From a virus: a stretch of DNA of 23,650 bases. The DNA lies in IMG/VR virus record IMGVR_UViG_3300046007_006128, positions 1 through 23,650 of that record; one strand, written 5' to 3'. Below, piece by piece: positions 7,545-17,617 of the stretch (positions are counted from its first letter, which is position 1; each line of letters starts with the position of its first letter). The notes below the pieces were generated by a model. That model saw only the letters and a list, made by a program, of their open reading frames with translations, searched no databases and was not told the DNA's origin. Made by a program: the position numbers and the translations under genes.

Positions 7545-7754
7545 ATGACTTTAAAAGAGTATTTTTCAACTAAACCCTATGGCTCGAAAGCCAAGCTGGC
7601 TAAGGCGTTGGGGATCAGTAGGACATGGCTTGGGCAGATCACAAACGGGTTCAAAGTACCCAGTCCAGAGCTGTCCTTAGAGATCGAGCGGATTACGGAG
7701 GGATGTGTAAAGCGGGTAGACCTTCGCCCAGACCTATTCGGGGAGGTCAAGTGA
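7545..7754 (+). CDS. Cro/YdaS-like HTH transcriptional regulator
   Basis: A 69-residue DNA-binding protein. The helix-turn-helix is KAKLAKALGISRTWLGQIT (about residues 13-31), with the recognition helix after GIS. The end KRVDLRPDLFGEVK is the 'LRPDLF' tail typical of YdaS/Cro-like phage regulators. The ATG at 7545 is preferred because AAAGGA lies six bases before it; an in-frame ATG at 7497 has no ribosome binding site and would put extra residues over the TGTAAC half-site. Its place beside a divergent promoter region with operator A suggests a Cro- or repressor-type switch for the early operons, perhaps also acting at copies B and C. Confidence 0.8.
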   Translation: MTLKEYFSTKPYGSKAKLAKALGISRTWLGQITNGFKVPSPELSLEIERITEGCVKRVDLRPDLFGEVK

Positions 7755-8455
7755 ACTACTACAAATTTCATATTGGAGACTACCTGACCCGGACCATGCA
7801 CCTAGCGGATGCCGAGGACTTGGCCTACAGGCGGCTTTTAGACCTTTACTACATCACTGAGAAGCCCCTGACCTTGGATATGGGTGCGCTTGCCAAGAGG
7901 GTACGGCTTGATTTGGAAGTCATCGAGCCGGTGCTAAATGAGTTCTTTGAACGGACGGTTAACGGATGGTTTAACGAGCGTTGCGAAAACGAAATAAAAA
8001 AGTATCAAAAATTCGTTAAACAAAACGTTGAAAACGCCAAAAAAAGCGTGTCTGTCAGGAAAAAGAAAGCCTCCAAGAGCCGCGCCAGTAAAGGCTCTGA
8101 ACCGGCGGTTAACCAGCCGTCAACCGGCGGCGAGCCGATGGGGGGCATAACCAATAACCAAGAACCAATAAAAGAAACCCCTATATCCCCTTTCGATGAG
8201 TTTTGGTCGATTTGGCCTACCGGACCTCGAAAGATCAACAAAACCGGTTGCCGGGACAAGTGGCTGGCTCATGGGCTAAACGATGTTGCCAAACAGATCC
8301 TGACCCATGTCCGGGCGATGAAGCAGACCCAGCAGTGGAAGGAGGGGTTTGTGCCTGCTCCGATGACCTACATCAACCAGTCCCGGTGGCTTGATGGCGA
8401 CCCTAACGGGGACAGTCCAAATGAGGGAGTTTTTGCTGGGAGGAAGGTCGTATGA
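7751..8455 (+). CDS. DUF1376-type replication initiator
   Basis: This 234-residue protein starts at GTG 7751, overlapping the previous stop by four bases (GTGA), with GGAGG six bases upstream. Residues 1-85 match the DUF1376 pattern (NYYKFHIGDYL, AYRRLLDLYYITEKPL), a winged-helix-type domain of phage replication proteins. A lysine-rich, low-complexity linker covers about 85-150. Residues 155-234 (FDEFWSIWPTGPRK, APMTYINQSRWLDG) form the C-terminal domain found in DnaT/DnaD-like initiators and helicase loaders. The DnaB-like helicase lies one gene downstream, so this protein probably recognises the origin and loads it. The linker-coding DNA contains tandem repeats and an A/T-rich block, as in lambda O. 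Confidence 0.8.
   Translation: MNYYKFHIGDYLTRTMHLADAEDLAYRRLLDLYYITEKPLTLDMGALAKRVRLDLEVIEPVLNEFFERTVNGWFNERCENEIKKYQKFVKQNVENAKKSVSVRKKKASKSRASKGSEPAVNQPSTGGEPMGGITNNQEPIKETPISPFDEFWSIWPTGPRKINKTGCRDKWLAHGLNDVAKQILTHVRAMKQTQQWKEGFVPAPMTYINQSRWLDGDPNGDSPNEGVFAGRKVV
7950..7983. repeat. 11/12-bp tandem repeats, array 1
   Basis: Three adjacent units: AACGGACGGTT (7950-7960), AACGGATGGTTT (7961-7972) and AACGAGCGTTG (7973-7983). They share the AAC start and G/C-rich core ending in GTT with the arrays at 8100, 14981 and 15466. The period is not a multiple of three, so amino-acid repetition does not explain it. Confidence 0.6.
8100..8132. repeat. 11-bp tandem repeats, array 2
   Basis: Three units at exact 11-bp spacing: AACCGGCGGTT (8100-8110), AACCAGCCGTC (8111-8121) and AACCGGCGGCG (8122-8132). 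The first nine bases of units 1 and 3 are identical. The unit is close to palindromic (AACCGNCGGTT). It is translated as part of the low-complexity linker of the initiator. Confidence 0.65.
8149..8169. repeat. 7-bp triplicate in the initiator linker
   Basis: Three consecutive 7-bp units: AACCAAT, AACCAAG, AACCAAT. They encode the 'TNNQEPI' type linker that I recall from other prophage replication proteins with this domain. The DNA repeat crosses the reading frame, so it may be selected as DNA. Confidence 0.6.
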
Positions 8456-8799
8456 CCGGAGATGTGCCTCTCAGACGCATGAGGATGAACCGTAAGGCTC
8501 CCAAAGCGGTGTGGGTATGGGTAGGTATCAACCCATCATCTATAGCCTCGCTATGGCCTGAAATTCCTGAGTTCTGGAATCACCCCGAGGTGGACATTTT
8601 GCCCTCGGACCGAATCGATCTTTTGGACCTTCGGTTTGCGGTCGGGTTACAGGTTCACATCGATGGCAACGATACCCGGGATCGGATTCTGTCTGCCCAC
8701 CGAGCTTTCAGTCTTGCCGGGGCCAAGTCGGTTTTCACCCTGATCGAGGGAAATCTTATCTACAACGAGGGAGTAAAAGTTGAACATCCTGCAGTCTGA
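8452..8799 (+). CDS. Hypothetical protein between initiator and helicase
   Basis: This 115-residue protein has an ATG overlapping the initiator stop by four bases (ATGA), with AGGAAGG upstream. The N-terminus is basic (RRMRMNRKAPKAVWVWV); the rest is mixed, with FWNHPEVDILPSDRIDLLDLR and a C-terminal FTLIEGNLIYNEG. There is no signal peptide or metal motif. Its place between initiator and helicase genes suggests a replication role, such as a loader or accessory subunit, but I do not recognise the family. It overlaps the helicase start by 20 bases. Confidence 0.65.
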   Translation: MTGDVPLRRMRMNRKAPKAVWVWVGINPSSIASLWPEIPEFWNHPEVDILPSDRIDLLDLRFAVGLQVHIDGNDTRDRILSAHRAFSLAGAKSVFTLIEGNLIYNEGVKVEHPAV

Positions 8800-9730
8800 C
8801 CAGATCGATTTCTCTGCATACCTACACGCCACCGAGCCGCAGCAGAAGATTCGGGAGGCCGGGGTTTGGTTAGAGGACATCAAGCAAGACGTAGTCAATC
8901 CACCCAAGGAGGCGCTGATCGCCATGCCTTGGACTAAGACTCAGGCGTCGTTCCATTTCCGACCGGGAGAGGTCACGGTGTATGCCGGAGGCAACGGGGG
9001 AGGGAAATCCCTAATCACCGGGCAGATCGCCATGGGACTCATAAAGCAGGGTCAAAAGGTCTGTATCGCCTCATTTGAGATGAAACCCAAGCGGTCGATC
9101 TATCGAATGATCAGACAGTTCTCAGGCGAGAACATCGATAAACCGCGGTTTTCCGATAAGAGTCGGTACATCGGAGAGCTGGTGGATCGATTCAGAGACT
9201 TTTCTGCAAATCACTTGTGGTTTTACGACCAGCAGGGGACGACAAATGCACAGCAAGTGATCGCCATGGCGAGATATTGCGCGGTAAAACTTGGTATCAC
9301 CCATGTATTTATCGACTCACTTATGAAATGCGTCCCAAGCGAAGACGATTACAACGCTCAAAAGTATTTTGTTGATGAGCTGACAGCCTTGGCCCGGGAT
9401 CACAACATTCATATTCATTTAATTCATCACATCAGAAAACTTACGAGCGAAGAAGTGACGCCGAATAAAAACGACATCAAGGGAACCGGATCGATTGCAG
9501 ATCAGGTGGATAACGTTTTGCTTGTCTGGAGAAACAAAAAGAAGGAGCATTCCGCACAGGCAGGTAATAGCGTAGATAACGCTACACCAGATGCGATGTT
9601 GATGTGTGAGAAGCAGCGAAACGGGGAAAGCGAAGATTGGTATTCACTTTGGTTTCATAAAGACAGCCATCAGTTTTTGGAAAACCCAGACTCAATGCCG
9701 ATGACGTTTGATCAGAAAGGCGATTTTTAA
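8780..9730 (+). CDS. DnaB-like replicative helicase (RecA-fold ATPase)
   Basis: A 316-residue RecA-fold ATPase of the DnaB/gp4 helicase type. Walker A is GGNGGGKS (70-77), E100 in ASFEM matches the catalytic glutamate of DnaB 'SLEM', Walker B is HVFIDSL with D179, the region IHLIHHIRK (211-220) matches motif H3, and KGTGSIADQVDNVLLVWRNK matches the last motif. There is no N-terminal primase domain and little space for a DnaB N-terminal domain, so it is a minimal helicase. The start is TTG 8780, with GGGAG upstream. With the DUF1376 initiator it should unwind the phage origin. No polymerase is seen here, so host polymerase or a gene elsewhere is needed. Confidence 0.85.
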   Translation: MNILQSDQIDFSAYLHATEPQQKIREAGVWLEDIKQDVVNPPKEALIAMPWTKTQASFHFRPGEVTVYAGGNGGGKSLITGQIAMGLIKQGQKVCIASFEMKPKRSIYRMIRQFSGENIDKPRFSDKSRYIGELVDRFRDFSANHLWFYDQQGTTNAQQVIAMARYCAVKLGITHVFIDSLMKCVPSEDDYNAQKYFVDELTALARDHNIHIHLIHHIRKLTSEEVTPNKNDIKGTGSIADQVDNVLLVWRNKKKEHSAQAGNSVDNATPDAMLMCEKQRNGESEDWYSLWFHKDSHQFLENPDSMPMTFDQKGDF

Positions 9731-9731
9731 T

Positions 9732-9953
9732 GTGGATGTTTACGAAAAATATAAAAACTGGAAAGAAGGGCAGGGCGAAGACCAAAGCCGACATCGGCAC
9801 CTTGTCCGATGGGTCATACGAATGCGACTTTCAGATCGAGACAAAGCGCATAAGTGGTTACAAGGCTGGAATGAAAAACATCCCGGCTCTGTTTTGGAAT
9901 CCGATGTGATGGATCAATGGAAAAAAGGAAACCGAGGCGATACATGGAAATGA
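9732..9953 (+). CDS. Small conserved phage protein
   Basis: This 73-residue protein starts at GTG 9732, just after the helicase stop (TAATGTG), with AAAGG about 11 bases upstream. It starts MDVYEKYKNWKEG, then RHLVRWVIRMRLSDRDKAHKWL, and ends with DQWKKGNRGDTWK. It is basic, helical and Trp-rich, and similar to unnamed small proteins I recall next to phage helicases. A replication accessory role is inferred from position only. The overlapping ATG frame at 9730 was considered and judged less likely. Confidence 0.65.
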   Translation: MDVYEKYKNWKEGQGEDQSRHRHLVRWVIRMRLSDRDKAHKWLQGWNEKHPGSVLESDVMDQWKKGNRGDTWK

Positions 9954-14554: not shown

Positions 14555-14760
14555 CAGTCATTAAAATGCGCCGGCCGGTGGACTTTCACCAAGCCGCCAA
14601 CACAATGGCTAACGGCCACCTCGGGGGCTTTGCTGAGTCCTTGGCGCTCACTTGGTTTCGGGCTGACTCCCTGAACCGGGAGAAGATCCAGTCAACTTGG
14701 CCAGAGCTTTTTATTACCGCCTTCGAACTATTTGAGAACCGAGACAGAAACCATGGATGA
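14551..14760 (+). CDS. Small hypothetical protein
   Basis: This 69-residue protein starts MTVIKMRRPVDFHQAANTMA. ATG 14551 is chosen because of the ATGA overlap with the upstream stop and GGGAG nine bases before it; an ATG five codons earlier has neither. Mixed charge, helical C-terminal half (WFRADSLNREKIQSTWPELF). Not recognised. Confidence 0.6.
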   Translation: MTVIKMRRPVDFHQAANTMANGHLGGFAESLALTWFRADSLNREKIQSTWPELFITAFELFENRDRNHG

Positions 14761-14983
14761 GCTGACCGTGCATCCGGCCTATTGCGATTATCTTGCCCAC
14801 TTGATCTCTAAGCACTTGAAAGCCAACGACTACAACCGACTGATCGACTCTGTCGGGAAGGTTCGGTTTGACTTGGGCAAGGACGGGAGTATGCTATCCA
14901 CAACCAAGCGAATTACGGTGATTGATGTGCAGGGTAAGGCTTACACCATCACCATCGAAGAGGCTAAGAATAAGACAATTTAA
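14753..14983 (+). CDS. Small hypothetical protein
   Basis: This 76-residue protein starts MDELTVHPAYCDYLAHLISK. ATG 14753 overlaps the previous stop by eight bases. The first half is helical, the second strand-rich (KRITVIDVQGKAYTITIEE). Its stop (14981-14983) is the first three bases of the 11-bp tandem array that fills the gap to the next gene. Not recognised. Confidence 0.6.
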   Translation: MDELTVHPAYCDYLAHLISKHLKANDYNRLIDSVGKVRFDLGKDGSMLSTTKRITVIDVQGKAYTITIEEAKNKTI

Positions 14984-15024
14984 CCGACGGTTAACCGGCC
15001 GTTAACGGTTGGCTAACCGCCCGT
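14981..15024. repeat. Four tandem 11-bp repeats, array 3
   Basis: The units are TAACCGACGGT, TAACCGGCCGT, TAACGGTTGGC and TAACCGCCCGT, at 14981, 14992, 15003 and 15014, with exact 11-bp spacing. The array is non-coding apart from the first three bases, which are a stop codon. It runs up to the Shine-Dalgarno of the next gene. Units also read as overlapping short palindromes such as GGTTAACC. The consensus matches the arrays in the initiator gene. Confidence 0.75.
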
Positions 15025-15036
15025 TGAGAGGACAAA

Positions 15037-15231
15037 TTGAAGATAGATGACGGTAACAACTTGGGATCAAACGTAGCCCGCCTGACGATCCTGACTACCC
15101 AGCTCCAAAAGATGGCGGCTAACGGGGTAGACACGATAGGCATCCTGAGGGTCACGGTCCAGATGCAGGCCGAACTCGATCAGGTCCGGGCGTGGGTATT
15201 GCGGCAAGAAAGCAAGGAAGCAATGGCCTAA
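15037..15231 (+). CDS. Small helical hypothetical protein
   Basis: This 64-residue protein starts at TTG 15037, with AGAGG five bases upstream. It has KIDDGNNLGSNVARLTILTTQ, then helices (MQAELDQVRAWVLRQESKEA). No motif is recognised. Because the iteron-like array ends 12 bases before its start, the repeats could also control its expression. Confidence 0.55.
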   Translation: MKIDDGNNLGSNVARLTILTTQLQKMAANGVDTIGILRVTVQMQAELDQVRAWVLRQESKEAMA

Positions 15232-15387
15232 GACGCATGGGTGCTGCCAACAGTCGTCCGGTCCCCACCGGGGTAGCACCCAGCCGCCTTGGGAGCCAGA
15301 ACAAACGAATTTTCGGCAACGTGGGTTCGGTTGTTGTACACAACTGGCTCCCGCCAGAGTAGCGAGAAGTAAAGAGAGGCCGTATCA
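15232..15387. other. Non-coding gap before terS with inverted repeats
   Basis: This 156-base stretch has no convincing gene. It holds two inverted repeats: TGGGTGCT (15238-15245) with AGCACCCA (15275-15282), and GGGAGCCAG (15291-15299) with CTGGCTCCC (15344-15352). The second encloses GTTGTACACAAC and is followed by GCCA. A 41-codon frame (15237-15362) exists but has no suitably placed ribosome binding site. A position directly upstream of the terminase genes suits a packaging site (cos or pac) or a promoter leader; neither can be shown here. Confidence 0.4.
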
Positions 15388-16029
15388 TTGCCCGATATCA
15401 ATTTGATTGGAATAAGGGTGATGCCTGAAACAACTAAGAAGCCGAAAGCCCCGAAGGAGCAAGCCAACGGCTCAACCACTAGCTCAACGGATGGTTCAAC
15501 CATCGGCCAACCGCCGGTTCAAGACCCGCCAAAACAAAAGACCGGTCGCCCGACAGACTACAACCTAAAACTCGCCGCAGAGATCTGTACTCGTATATCT
15601 AACGGAGAAGCATTAAGACAGATCTGTATGAGGGAAGATATGCCGGTTCAGTCGGCTGTGTATGTGTGGTTGGCGCGTCATCCTGAATTCAAGGAGATGT
15701 ACACACGCGCACGGGAAGAACAGGCCGATACTTTGGCTGACGAGATTCAGGCTATTGCTGACGAAACGCCTGAGATGAACCCGATCTACACCAAGGACGG
15801 GGAGCTGATCCGCATCGAGCTGCACGGCGCCTATATCCAGTGGCAGAAGAACCGGATCGATGCCCGCAAATGGGTGGCCGCCAAGCTCAAGCCCCGGAAG
15901 TACGGTGACCGGGTGGAGCTGACCGGGGATAAAGACAACCCCCTGCACATCAACGCTCAGGTGGAGACCAAGACCCTCTTTTCGACCATCCTGCAGAACC
16001 TAGAGCTAAAGAAGCAGGCTCAGGAATGA
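15388..16029 (+). CDS. terS: Terminase small subunit (terS)
   Basis: A terminase small subunit of the Sf6 gp1-like HTH type, 213 residues from TTG 15388 (GAGAGG eight bases upstream) or 202 from ATG 15421. After a low-complexity Thr/Ser/Pro tract, GRPTDYNLKLAAEICTRIS begins the DNA-binding domain with the HTH LRQICMREDMPVQSAVYVWL, then HPEFKEMYTRAREEQADTL and DEIQAIADET. The ring-forming subunit recognises the packaging site and delivers DNA to TerL. The low-complexity tract is encoded by 11/12-bp repeats related to the other arrays. The next gene starts three bases after its stop. Confidence 0.88.
   Translation: MPDINLIGIRVMPETTKKPKAPKEQANGSTTSSTDGSTIGQPPVQDPPKQKTGRPTDYNLKLAAEICTRISNGEALRQICMREDMPVQSAVYVWLARHPEFKEMYTRAREEQADTLADEIQAIADETPEMNPIYTKDGELIRIELHGAYIQWQKNRIDARKWVAAKLKPRKYGDRVELTGDKDNPLHINAQVETKTLFSTILQNLELKKQAQE
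15466..15520. repeat. 11/12-bp repeats at the 5' end of terS, array 4
   Basis: Units beginning AAC at 15466, 15474, 15486, 15498 and 15509: an 8-base partial unit, then AACCACTAGCTC, AACGGATGGTTC, AACCATCGGCC and AACCGCCGGTTC. A 15-bp palindrome, GATGGTT-C-AACCATC (15490-15504), spans two units. The DNA is translated as a Thr/Ser/Pro-rich tract of TerS. It is less regular than array 3. Confidence 0.5.
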
Positions 16030-16032
16030 GGG

Positions 16033-17439
16033 ATGACTGATCTTGCTGAGTTGCTGGCCAACCCAGAGATTCAGGCCAAGTTCTCCATTTTGCCAGCCGA
16101 AGATCAGGCCGCATGGGCTTGGCGGGCTAACTGGCTCACTAAGGCCCATAAGCACCAGATTGTGCCGGCTGGGGATTGGTGGACGATATGGCTTATGCTC
16201 GCCGGCCGCGGTGCCGGCAAAACCCGGACGGCTGCGGAGCAAGTGGGGTGGTGGGCATGGCAGGAAGCAGGCACTCGCTGGCTGGTTGGAGCGCCCACCA
16301 GCTCAGATGTTCGGGCTACCTGTTTTGAGGGAGATTCAGGGCTCCTATCAGTTATACCCAGTTCACTTGTGGCAGATTACAACCGCGCCTTCCACGAGAT
16401 TAAATTGACTAATGGCAGCCTGATCAAGGGAATCCCTGCGTCTGAACCTGAGCGCTTCCGGGGGCCGCAGTTCCACGGGGCATGGCTAGATGAGCTGGCC
16501 GCTTGGGACTACCTCGATGAGGCGTGGGATCAGATCATGTTTTCCGTCCGGCTTGGCTCTAGAACCCGGATTATCGCCACCACAACCCCGCGGCCGAAGG
16601 ACTTGATCATCGATCTGGTCGGCCGGGATGGGGACGATGTAACGCTTACTACTGCGTCCACCTACGACAACCTAGCCAATCTGTCGCCCAACTTCCAGAA
16701 GCAGATCCTTCAGTACGAGGGAACCAAGCTGGGGCGGCAGGAGATCTACGCCGAGATCATCGACCCCGAAGAGTCGGGAATCGTTAAGCGGGAGATGTTC
16801 AAGCTCTGGCCGGCTGAGAAGCCCTTCCCGAAGTTCGACTTCATCCTTCAGTCCTATGACTGCGCCTATACCGAGAAGACCATCAACGATCCCACTGCCT
16901 GCACGACTTGGGGGATCTTCCAGCCCATGGACGGACCGACCGCGGTCATGCTGATAGACGCATGGCAGGACAGGCTCCAGTACCCCGACCTGCGGCCGAA
17001 GGTCATCGAGGAATACAAGGTGACCTACGGGGAGGGCAAAGACGGCAAGAAGGTTGACCTGATCCTTATTGAAGACAAAGCCTCGGGCATAAGTCTCATC
17101 CAAGACCTGCAGCGGGCGCGTCTGCCGGTGAGGGCATATAACCCCGGCCGGGCGGATAAGATCCAACGGCTATCGATTGTGGCCAACATCATCGCCCATA
17201 AGCGGGTCTACATCCCCGAGTCTATGGTTAAGAAAGGCTACGTCAGGGATTGGGCTGAGGGGTTCGTCAGTCAGATCTGCTCATTCCCAGAATCCACCCA
17301 TGACGACTTTGTCGATACCTGTACTCAGGCGCTGAGATACCTTAGAGATGCGGGGTTCCTTGACATAGACCCACCGGCAAGGGACGATGATGATTACGCC
17401 GAATTCAGACCTAAGCGCGTGAACCCTTATGCAGCGTAG
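16033..17439 (+). CDS. terL: Terminase large subunit (terL)
   Basis: A 468-residue packaging ATPase and nuclease. The N-terminal ATPase has Walker A GRGAGKT (58-64), Walker B AWLDEL with D153-E154, and the coupling motif IIATTTPRP (180-188). The C-terminal RNase H-like nuclease has D276 in SYDCAY, E347-D348-K349 in LIEDKASG, and D424-D425 in HDDFVDT. These match the Terminase_6/HK97-type large subunit. It pumps DNA into the prohead through the portal encoded downstream and cuts the concatemer. Start ATG 16033 follows a purine-rich GGAATGAGGG. Confidence 0.95.
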   Translation: MTDLAELLANPEIQAKFSILPAEDQAAWAWRANWLTKAHKHQIVPAGDWWTIWLMLAGRGAGKTRTAAEQVGWWAWQEAGTRWLVGAPTSSDVRATCFEGDSGLLSVIPSSLVADYNRAFHEIKLTNGSLIKGIPASEPERFRGPQFHGAWLDELAAWDYLDEAWDQIMFSVRLGSRTRIIATTTPRPKDLIIDLVGRDGDDVTLTTASTYDNLANLSPNFQKQILQYEGTKLGRQEIYAEIIDPEESGIVKREMFKLWPAEKPFPKFDFILQSYDCAYTEKTINDPTACTTWGIFQPMDGPTAVMLIDAWQDRLQYPDLRPKVIEEYKVTYGEGKDGKKVDLILIEDKASGISLIQDLQRARLPVRAYNPGRADKIQRLSIVANIIAHKRVYIPESMVKKGYVRDWAEGFVSQICSFPESTHDDFVDTCTQALRYLRDAGFLDIDPPARDDDDYAEFRPKRVNPYAA

Positions 17440-17617
17440 CCAACTGATGCTAACCCTTGACCGACTTCTCTCAAACGGCTGGATCGATGAAGCCTACGCA
17501 AAGAAGAAGGGGATCGGTCGTCTGCCGGCGCAAATCCATAGACTCAGGGCAAAGGGCTACACCATCTTGGCAATCCGTAACGGCAATAAGTCTAAGTATG
17601 TGATCGGGGAGCCCTGA
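17429..17617 (+). CDS. Small winged-helix DNA-binding protein
   Basis: This 62-residue protein starts MQRSQLMLTLDRLLSNGWID, overlapping terL by 11 bases; a second in-frame ATG at 17447 is possible. The pattern helix (LTLDRLLSNGWI), helix (GRLPAQIHRLRAKGYT) and a strand pair (ILAIRNGNKSKYVI) is that of a short winged helix, like small HTH proteins I recall next to terminases. The next gene begins at its stop (TGATG). It may bind the packaging region or regulate late genes. Confidence 0.65.
   Translation: MQRSQLMLTLDRLLSNGWIDEAYAKKKGIGRLPAQIHRLRAKGYTILAIRNGNKSKYVIGEP

Follow-up and report, generated by a model that had tools for sequence, protein, structure and literature searches.

Repeat arrays in the replication and packaging regions

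The DNA analyzed here, referred to as the window, is a stretch of 23,650 nucleotides that corresponds to positions 1 to 23,650 of the IMG/VR virus record IMGVR_UViG_3300046007_006128. It encodes a putative replication initiator with its gene neighborhood and, several kilobases downstream, the terminase genes, and short repeats are found at both places. The relevant genes and features are listed below, with no strand assigned to the repeat arrays or the AT-rich segment:

7545..7754, + strand: HTH regulator of the YdaS/Cro-like type, immediately 5' of the initiator gene (PF15943, 6.1e-11)
7751..8455, + strand: DUF1376 (YdaU-like) replication initiator / replisome organizer (PF07120, 2.6e-22; PHROG primosomal protein, 1.1e-32)
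7950..7982: array A, three units, within the portion of the initiator gene that encodes the DUF1376 domain
7983..8095: AT-rich stretch separating arrays A and B, a candidate unwinding segment (60% AT vs. a window mean of 49%)
8100..8132: array B, three units, where the initiator gene encodes a disordered linker
8780..9730, + strand: DnaB-like replicative helicase, 3' of the initiator gene (PF03796, 1.9e-18)
14982..15025: array C, intergenic, made up of four 11-bp dyads (AACSGNNSGTT)
15037..15231, + strand: small ORF after array C, 64 aa, TTG start
15421..16029, + strand: terS, Sf6-type small terminase, which holds array D (PF20901, 5e-39)
15474..15519: array D, with four units of which one is degenerate, in the part of terS that encodes the N-terminal linker
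16033..17439, + strand: terL, large terminase (PF03237/PF17289)

The replication genes are ordered as YdaS/Cro-like regulator, DUF1376 initiator, one short ORF and DnaB-like helicase; that is, a replication neighborhood, which is a feature of iteron-type origins, is present, with the helicase at 8780-9730. The N-terminal domain of the initiator (about residues 11-90) was modeled confidently by AlphaFold, from 9 sequences, with a helix-helix-helix-wing arrangement, and its structural neighbors were mostly winged-helix proteins (Foldseek E of 0.3, which is weak; best VIA-align Z of 6.7, the ordinary level for winged helices). The DUF1376 N-terminal domain is tentatively predicted to be a winged helix.

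Array C extends from the stop codon of the ORF at 14732-14983 to the Shine-Dalgarno sequence (RBS) of the ORF at 15037, and its units (AACCGACGGTT, AACCGGCCGTT, AACGGTTGGCT and AACCGCCCGTT) follow one another with a period of exactly 11 bp. The initial annotation of this DNA had reported TAACCG or TAACGG at 14981, 14992, 15003 and 15014 with an exact 11-bp period, and all four positions, as well as the period for all four units, proved correct; it had also noted that the unit is common to the initiator gene and terS, and we find it in two arrays of the former, 7 kb away. Its description of the repeats as non-coding holds for array C except for the first TAA, which is the stop codon of the ORF at 14732-14983 and is overlapped by the first unit, since the other end of the array lies just 5' of the Shine-Dalgarno sequence. 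The AT content beside array C is 57%, a slight enrichment, and no exact DnaA box is found near the array; a match with one mismatch at 14894 was rejected as evidence, being one of 31 equal matches in the window. GC skew gave no decisive signal. Family searches with the ORF at 15037..15231 matched no known family, and Rfam matched no family in the window or in its sibling genome (L007, below). A small winged-helix-like ORF (HTH_39, weak), which the initial annotation had put forward as a candidate for binding the repeats, follows terL at 17429-17617.

Distribution of the repeats in this phage and in DUF1376 genes

To avoid circular scoring, the window was scored with a matrix trained solely on arrays A and B. 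With this matrix, four-unit chains scored 54.6 at array C and 42.4 at array D vs. 10.1 at the best place in the window outside arrays A-D, and the top chain score among 300 dinucleotide shuffles was 22.5, below both C and D. Exact AACSGNCSGTT sites were similarly restricted: the 54 kb version of the phage has six and the 56 kb sibling seven, all of them within the four arrays. Because the matrix ranking and the exact sites single out the four arrays, the motif is not equally dense elsewhere in either genome, which was a possibility raised by the initial annotation. Across IMG/VR, zero-spaced pairs of AACSGNCSGTT were confined to this phage and its sibling; a strict 12-bp-spaced pattern searched in bacterial genomes was uninformative, most of the hits being intrinsic terminators and coding repeats rich in proline.

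The 11-bp period itself extends to other DUF1376 genes. The strongest local repeat (score of at least 22) has a lag of 11 in 9 of 39 DUF1376 genes vs. 1 among 373 control ORFs of comparable length, and two clusters per gene, comparable to the A-plus-B pair of this phage, are common among the former. Repeated short sites inside the initiator gene, another feature of iteron-type origins, are present here as arrays A and B and have similar pairs in other DUF1376 genes. The unit varies among these genes, with TGCGNNCGCA in most, AACGNNCGTT in another group and AACCGNCGGTT in this phage. When IMG/VR was searched with the DNA pattern TGCGNNCGCANTGCGNNCGCANTGCG alone, i.e., with no protein information, the array was located inside a DUF1376 ORF in 62 of 80 viral loci, and several of the remaining loci had arrays in other replication-initiator-like proteins, as judged by reading the sequences. 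Over 65 DUF1376 loci (568 kb), 80 clusters were within the gene vs. 3 outside, where at least one cluster per locus results from how the search was constructed while the position of the clusters in the gene and the second clusters do not; the reversed sequence and four control dyads gave 0 clusters over the same loci. Arrays of TGCGNNCGCA with the 11-bp period also occur in NANAMRTQCDGNA-like linkers of initiator-like proteins in which DUF1376 was not detected (L174, L220, L223, L230 and L239), and thus the array type is wider than DUF1376. We found no earlier description of DUF1376/YdaU origins or of 11-bp phage iterons in the open-access literature.

Conservation of array C and a second locus in relatives

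The initial annotation had reasoned that a meaningful array should be conserved in close relatives, and array C is identical at 44 of 44 positions in the sibling L007, with flanks that are only 83-84% identical. The adjoining 101 bp of coding DNA directly 5' of the array (window 14881-14981) are also 99% identical in L007 vs. 84% for the upstream part of the same gene, and the functional DNA site may be larger than array C. In array D of L007, the upstream units are replaced, with an indel, while the 11-12 bp period and the consensus are kept; one new unit is AACGGCCCGTC. This indel is one point in favor of regarding the arrays as functionless tandem repeats, either selfish or produced by slippage, that persist because linkers and gaps can accommodate them; another is that three of the four occupy tolerant sites, namely two stretches encoding protein linkers and an intergenic gap. 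However, array C is invariant between diverged flanks, relatives keep arrays at both loci with a changed unit (below), and arrays are almost absent elsewhere, and we regard this explanation as highly improbable.

The non-coding DNA before terS (window 15231-15387) contains two strong hairpins, tgggtgctgcc/ggtagcaccca and gggagccag/ctggctccc, both of which are kept in L007 (17213-17850), together with about 500 bp of extra, structured-looking non-coding DNA. L034, a relative described next, also has a long non-coding stretch before terS (9630-9915), which opens with a similar 'cgcatgggg'. It is possible that the hairpin-bearing stretch is a structured RNA or a packaging site.

Among relatives picked by TerS similarity, the window's own unit was not found at terS, and these relatives seemed to lack array C because the scan used that unit. 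A unit-free scan revealed AARCGAATCGA arrays upstream of terS in L027, L031 and L034, and the contigs of L031 and L034 carry AARCGAATCGA in the initiator gene as well, which in L034 is a full-length DUF1376 gene. The synteny of L034 is that of the window (HTH, DUF1376 with arrays, helicase, array, terS) with a different unit, and the first unit of its terS-side array overlaps a stop codon while the last one reaches a start codon. Perfect 13-bp palindromes, AACCGAWTCGGTT, were observed in an initiator gene of the L034 type (L314, at 2227, 2269 and 2722), two of them in the stretch that encodes the DUF1376 domain and the third close to the 3' end of the gene.

A search based on an initiator alignment provided 80 relatives, and 32 long loci among them were analyzed. 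In this clade, the nearest to the initiator studied here, a AANCGAATCGA array is found in the initiator gene at 24 of the 32 loci, which were retrieved by initiator similarity. At the 18 loci with a recognizable terS, 18 AANCGAATCGA arrays lie within -1500..+200 of terS (13 loci) vs. 3 elsewhere in 316 kb, while 5 of the 18 loci have no array within 1.5 kb upstream; these counts are not independent observations since the relatives share descent. The terS-side arrays are all on one strand, none was found in shuffled sequence, and several relatives have two arrays about 0.5 kb apart upstream of terS. Site maps of whole records showed a comparable arrangement in two clusters, most clearly for G583 (52.6 kb), and scattered single sites in some others. 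Thus, repeats that also occur at a second, distant and non-coding place, which is a feature of the SPP1 type, are present here as array C, 7 kb from array B, with counterparts in relatives. The second locus was not seen in phages with the common TGCG-type initiators and hence is not general. Directly before terS-side arrays of several relatives, we observed a GC-rich hairpin of the GGGGGCGAAAGCCCCC type (L366 at 17170, L381 at 18370, L328 at 14640, L339 at 12710, and L346 at 15770 and 16610), and the hairpin-preceded arrays of the AANCGAATCGA clade end at an RBS and start codon.

What the repeat unit follows among relatives is informative about the protein that may read it. The TerS proteins of L355, L356 and L337 are only 33-37% identical to that of L366, their initiators are 60-67% identical to the L366 initiator, and all share the CGAATCG unit. 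On the other hand, L020 and L021, with TerS proteins 74% and 72% identical to that of the window, have no array of any tested unit upstream of terS, and the initiator of L020 is of the TGCG type and 38% identical to the window's. As judged from these comparisons, the unit varies from clade to clade, is the same at both loci of a given phage, and goes with the initiator rather than with TerS. The initial annotation had suggested that array C could be part of the packaging signal, i.e., that arrays C and D are (part of) a pac site bound by TerS, and their location favors this idea, with C 0.4 kb upstream of terS and D inside it, where the pac of P22/SPP1-type phages sits, and with paired arrays recurring about 0.5 kb apart upstream of terS in relatives. 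Nonetheless, two further arrays of this unit are found in the initiator gene, 7 kb off, and the idea is weakened because the arrays do not follow TerS type across relatives but follow initiator type; we consider a pac role quite unlikely.

A related question is whether array C regulates the gene after it, as the initial annotation had also proposed for the gene at 15037. Under this hypothesis, the array would be an operator or attenuator with which the initiator or the YdaS-like HTH protein represses or times 15037, terS and the late genes. Initiators often autoregulate, and array C fills the gap between stop codon and RBS, a stop-array-RBS geometry that relatives repeat, in several cases after a GC-rich hairpin. 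This hypothesis is weakened, however, because relatives keep the position of the array between stop codon and RBS while different, unrelated small genes follow it. Further, the sole promoter-like match (14868-14895, 87-114 bp upstream of the array) is at chance level, and YdaS-like genes were found near the initiator in 2 of 65 array-bearing DUF1376 loci in a limited search, which to that extent speaks against the YdaS-like regulator as a general binder of the arrays. An operator role thus appears unlikely to us. Since the arrays follow the initiator type and the following gene changes, the sites fit the initiator, as opposed to TerS or the operator of one gene.

Alternatively, the arrays might be recognized by a DNA-binding protein of the host. 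Many phage origins are assisted by host factors, related TGCGNNCGCA arrays are found in several different initiator families, and the unit may co-vary with a host factor. Yet phages that have syntenic genes in common use different units, which go with the initiator type, and we find a host protein very unlikely to be the explanation.

Proposed role of the arrays and comparison with known systems

Based on the above, we infer that the DUF1376 initiator is quite probably the protein that binds the arrays. We also lean toward the more specific hypothesis that all of arrays A-D are initiator sites, with A/B representing the origin and C (with D) a second locus beside the packaging genes; given the repeat comparisons and the known precedents, we hold this hypothesis to be somewhat favored. 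In this model, the initiator would use its predicted winged-helix domain to bind the 11-bp dyads, all in phase and on a single face of the DNA. Arrays A and B would form the main origin, where the initiator would open the DNA and load the DnaB-like helicase encoded just downstream. Array C (with D), as the second initiator-bound locus next to the packaging genes, would resemble the proposed SPP1 oriR and act as a late origin or a nucleoprotein roadblock, so that replication of circles gives way to the concatemer replication that headful packaging requires. Position and precedent make a second origin or roadblock the most likely role for C/D. The initial annotation had listed a second origin among its suggestions, and this one fits best, being compatible with all data and with the oriL/oriR precedent of SPP1, with the origin activity itself being inferred; an operator for the gene at 15037 and a TerS packaging signal fit worse.

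In more general terms, it may be, though we would place the chances slightly below even, that a large family of uncultured phages physically couples replication and packaging through arrays of the initiator's unit at both the initiator gene and the terminase locus, with the unit matching within a phage and differing between clades, and that DUF1376 genes carry phage-specific origin arrays of 11-bp period. If true, the replication specificity of a phage could be read from the linker of a single gene, which would provide a sequence-only way to locate the origin in many uncultured phages with a DUF1376 protein still called 'unknown function' and, in one clade, the second initiator locus as well. 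These phages would also constitute a naturally occurring set of initiator/site pairs whose specificity has changed, and an SPP1-style switch from circle replication to packaging-ready concatemers would become testable in a new, widespread group.

Elements of this arrangement are found in well-studied systems. The ori of phage lambda lies inside the initiator gene O, with iterons in its linker part, as here, and an A+T-rich segment nearby, to which the candidate segment between arrays A and B may correspond, although the lambda iterons are longer and the initiator belongs to a different family; to our knowledge, the lambda terminase genes are not accompanied by a second array. The ydaS-ydaT-ydaU-ydaV genes of the E. 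coli Rac prophage also have a DUF1376 gene downstream of a YdaS-type regulator, and ydaU showed no clear 11-bp array (best lag-11 score of 18). A pac of the P22/SPP1 type lies, like C/D, in or just upstream of terS (PMC6316719, for SPP1), and differs in that the motif here tracks the initiator and is common to the initiator gene. Finally, Bacillus phage SPP1 shares with this phage both direct repeats within the initiator's own gene and a second, distant locus of the same organization: its gp38 (G38P) binds repeats both inside gene 38 (oriL) and in oriR, which lies about 12-13 kb from there, and the oriR-bound protein has been proposed to halt forks and set off concatemer replication (PMC6316719, PMC3485210). 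What distinguishes the phage group described here is the 11-bp dyad unit, the proximity to terS and the presence of an array within that gene; by analogy, SPP1 oriL/oriR would represent a close functional precedent for arrays A/B and C/D.
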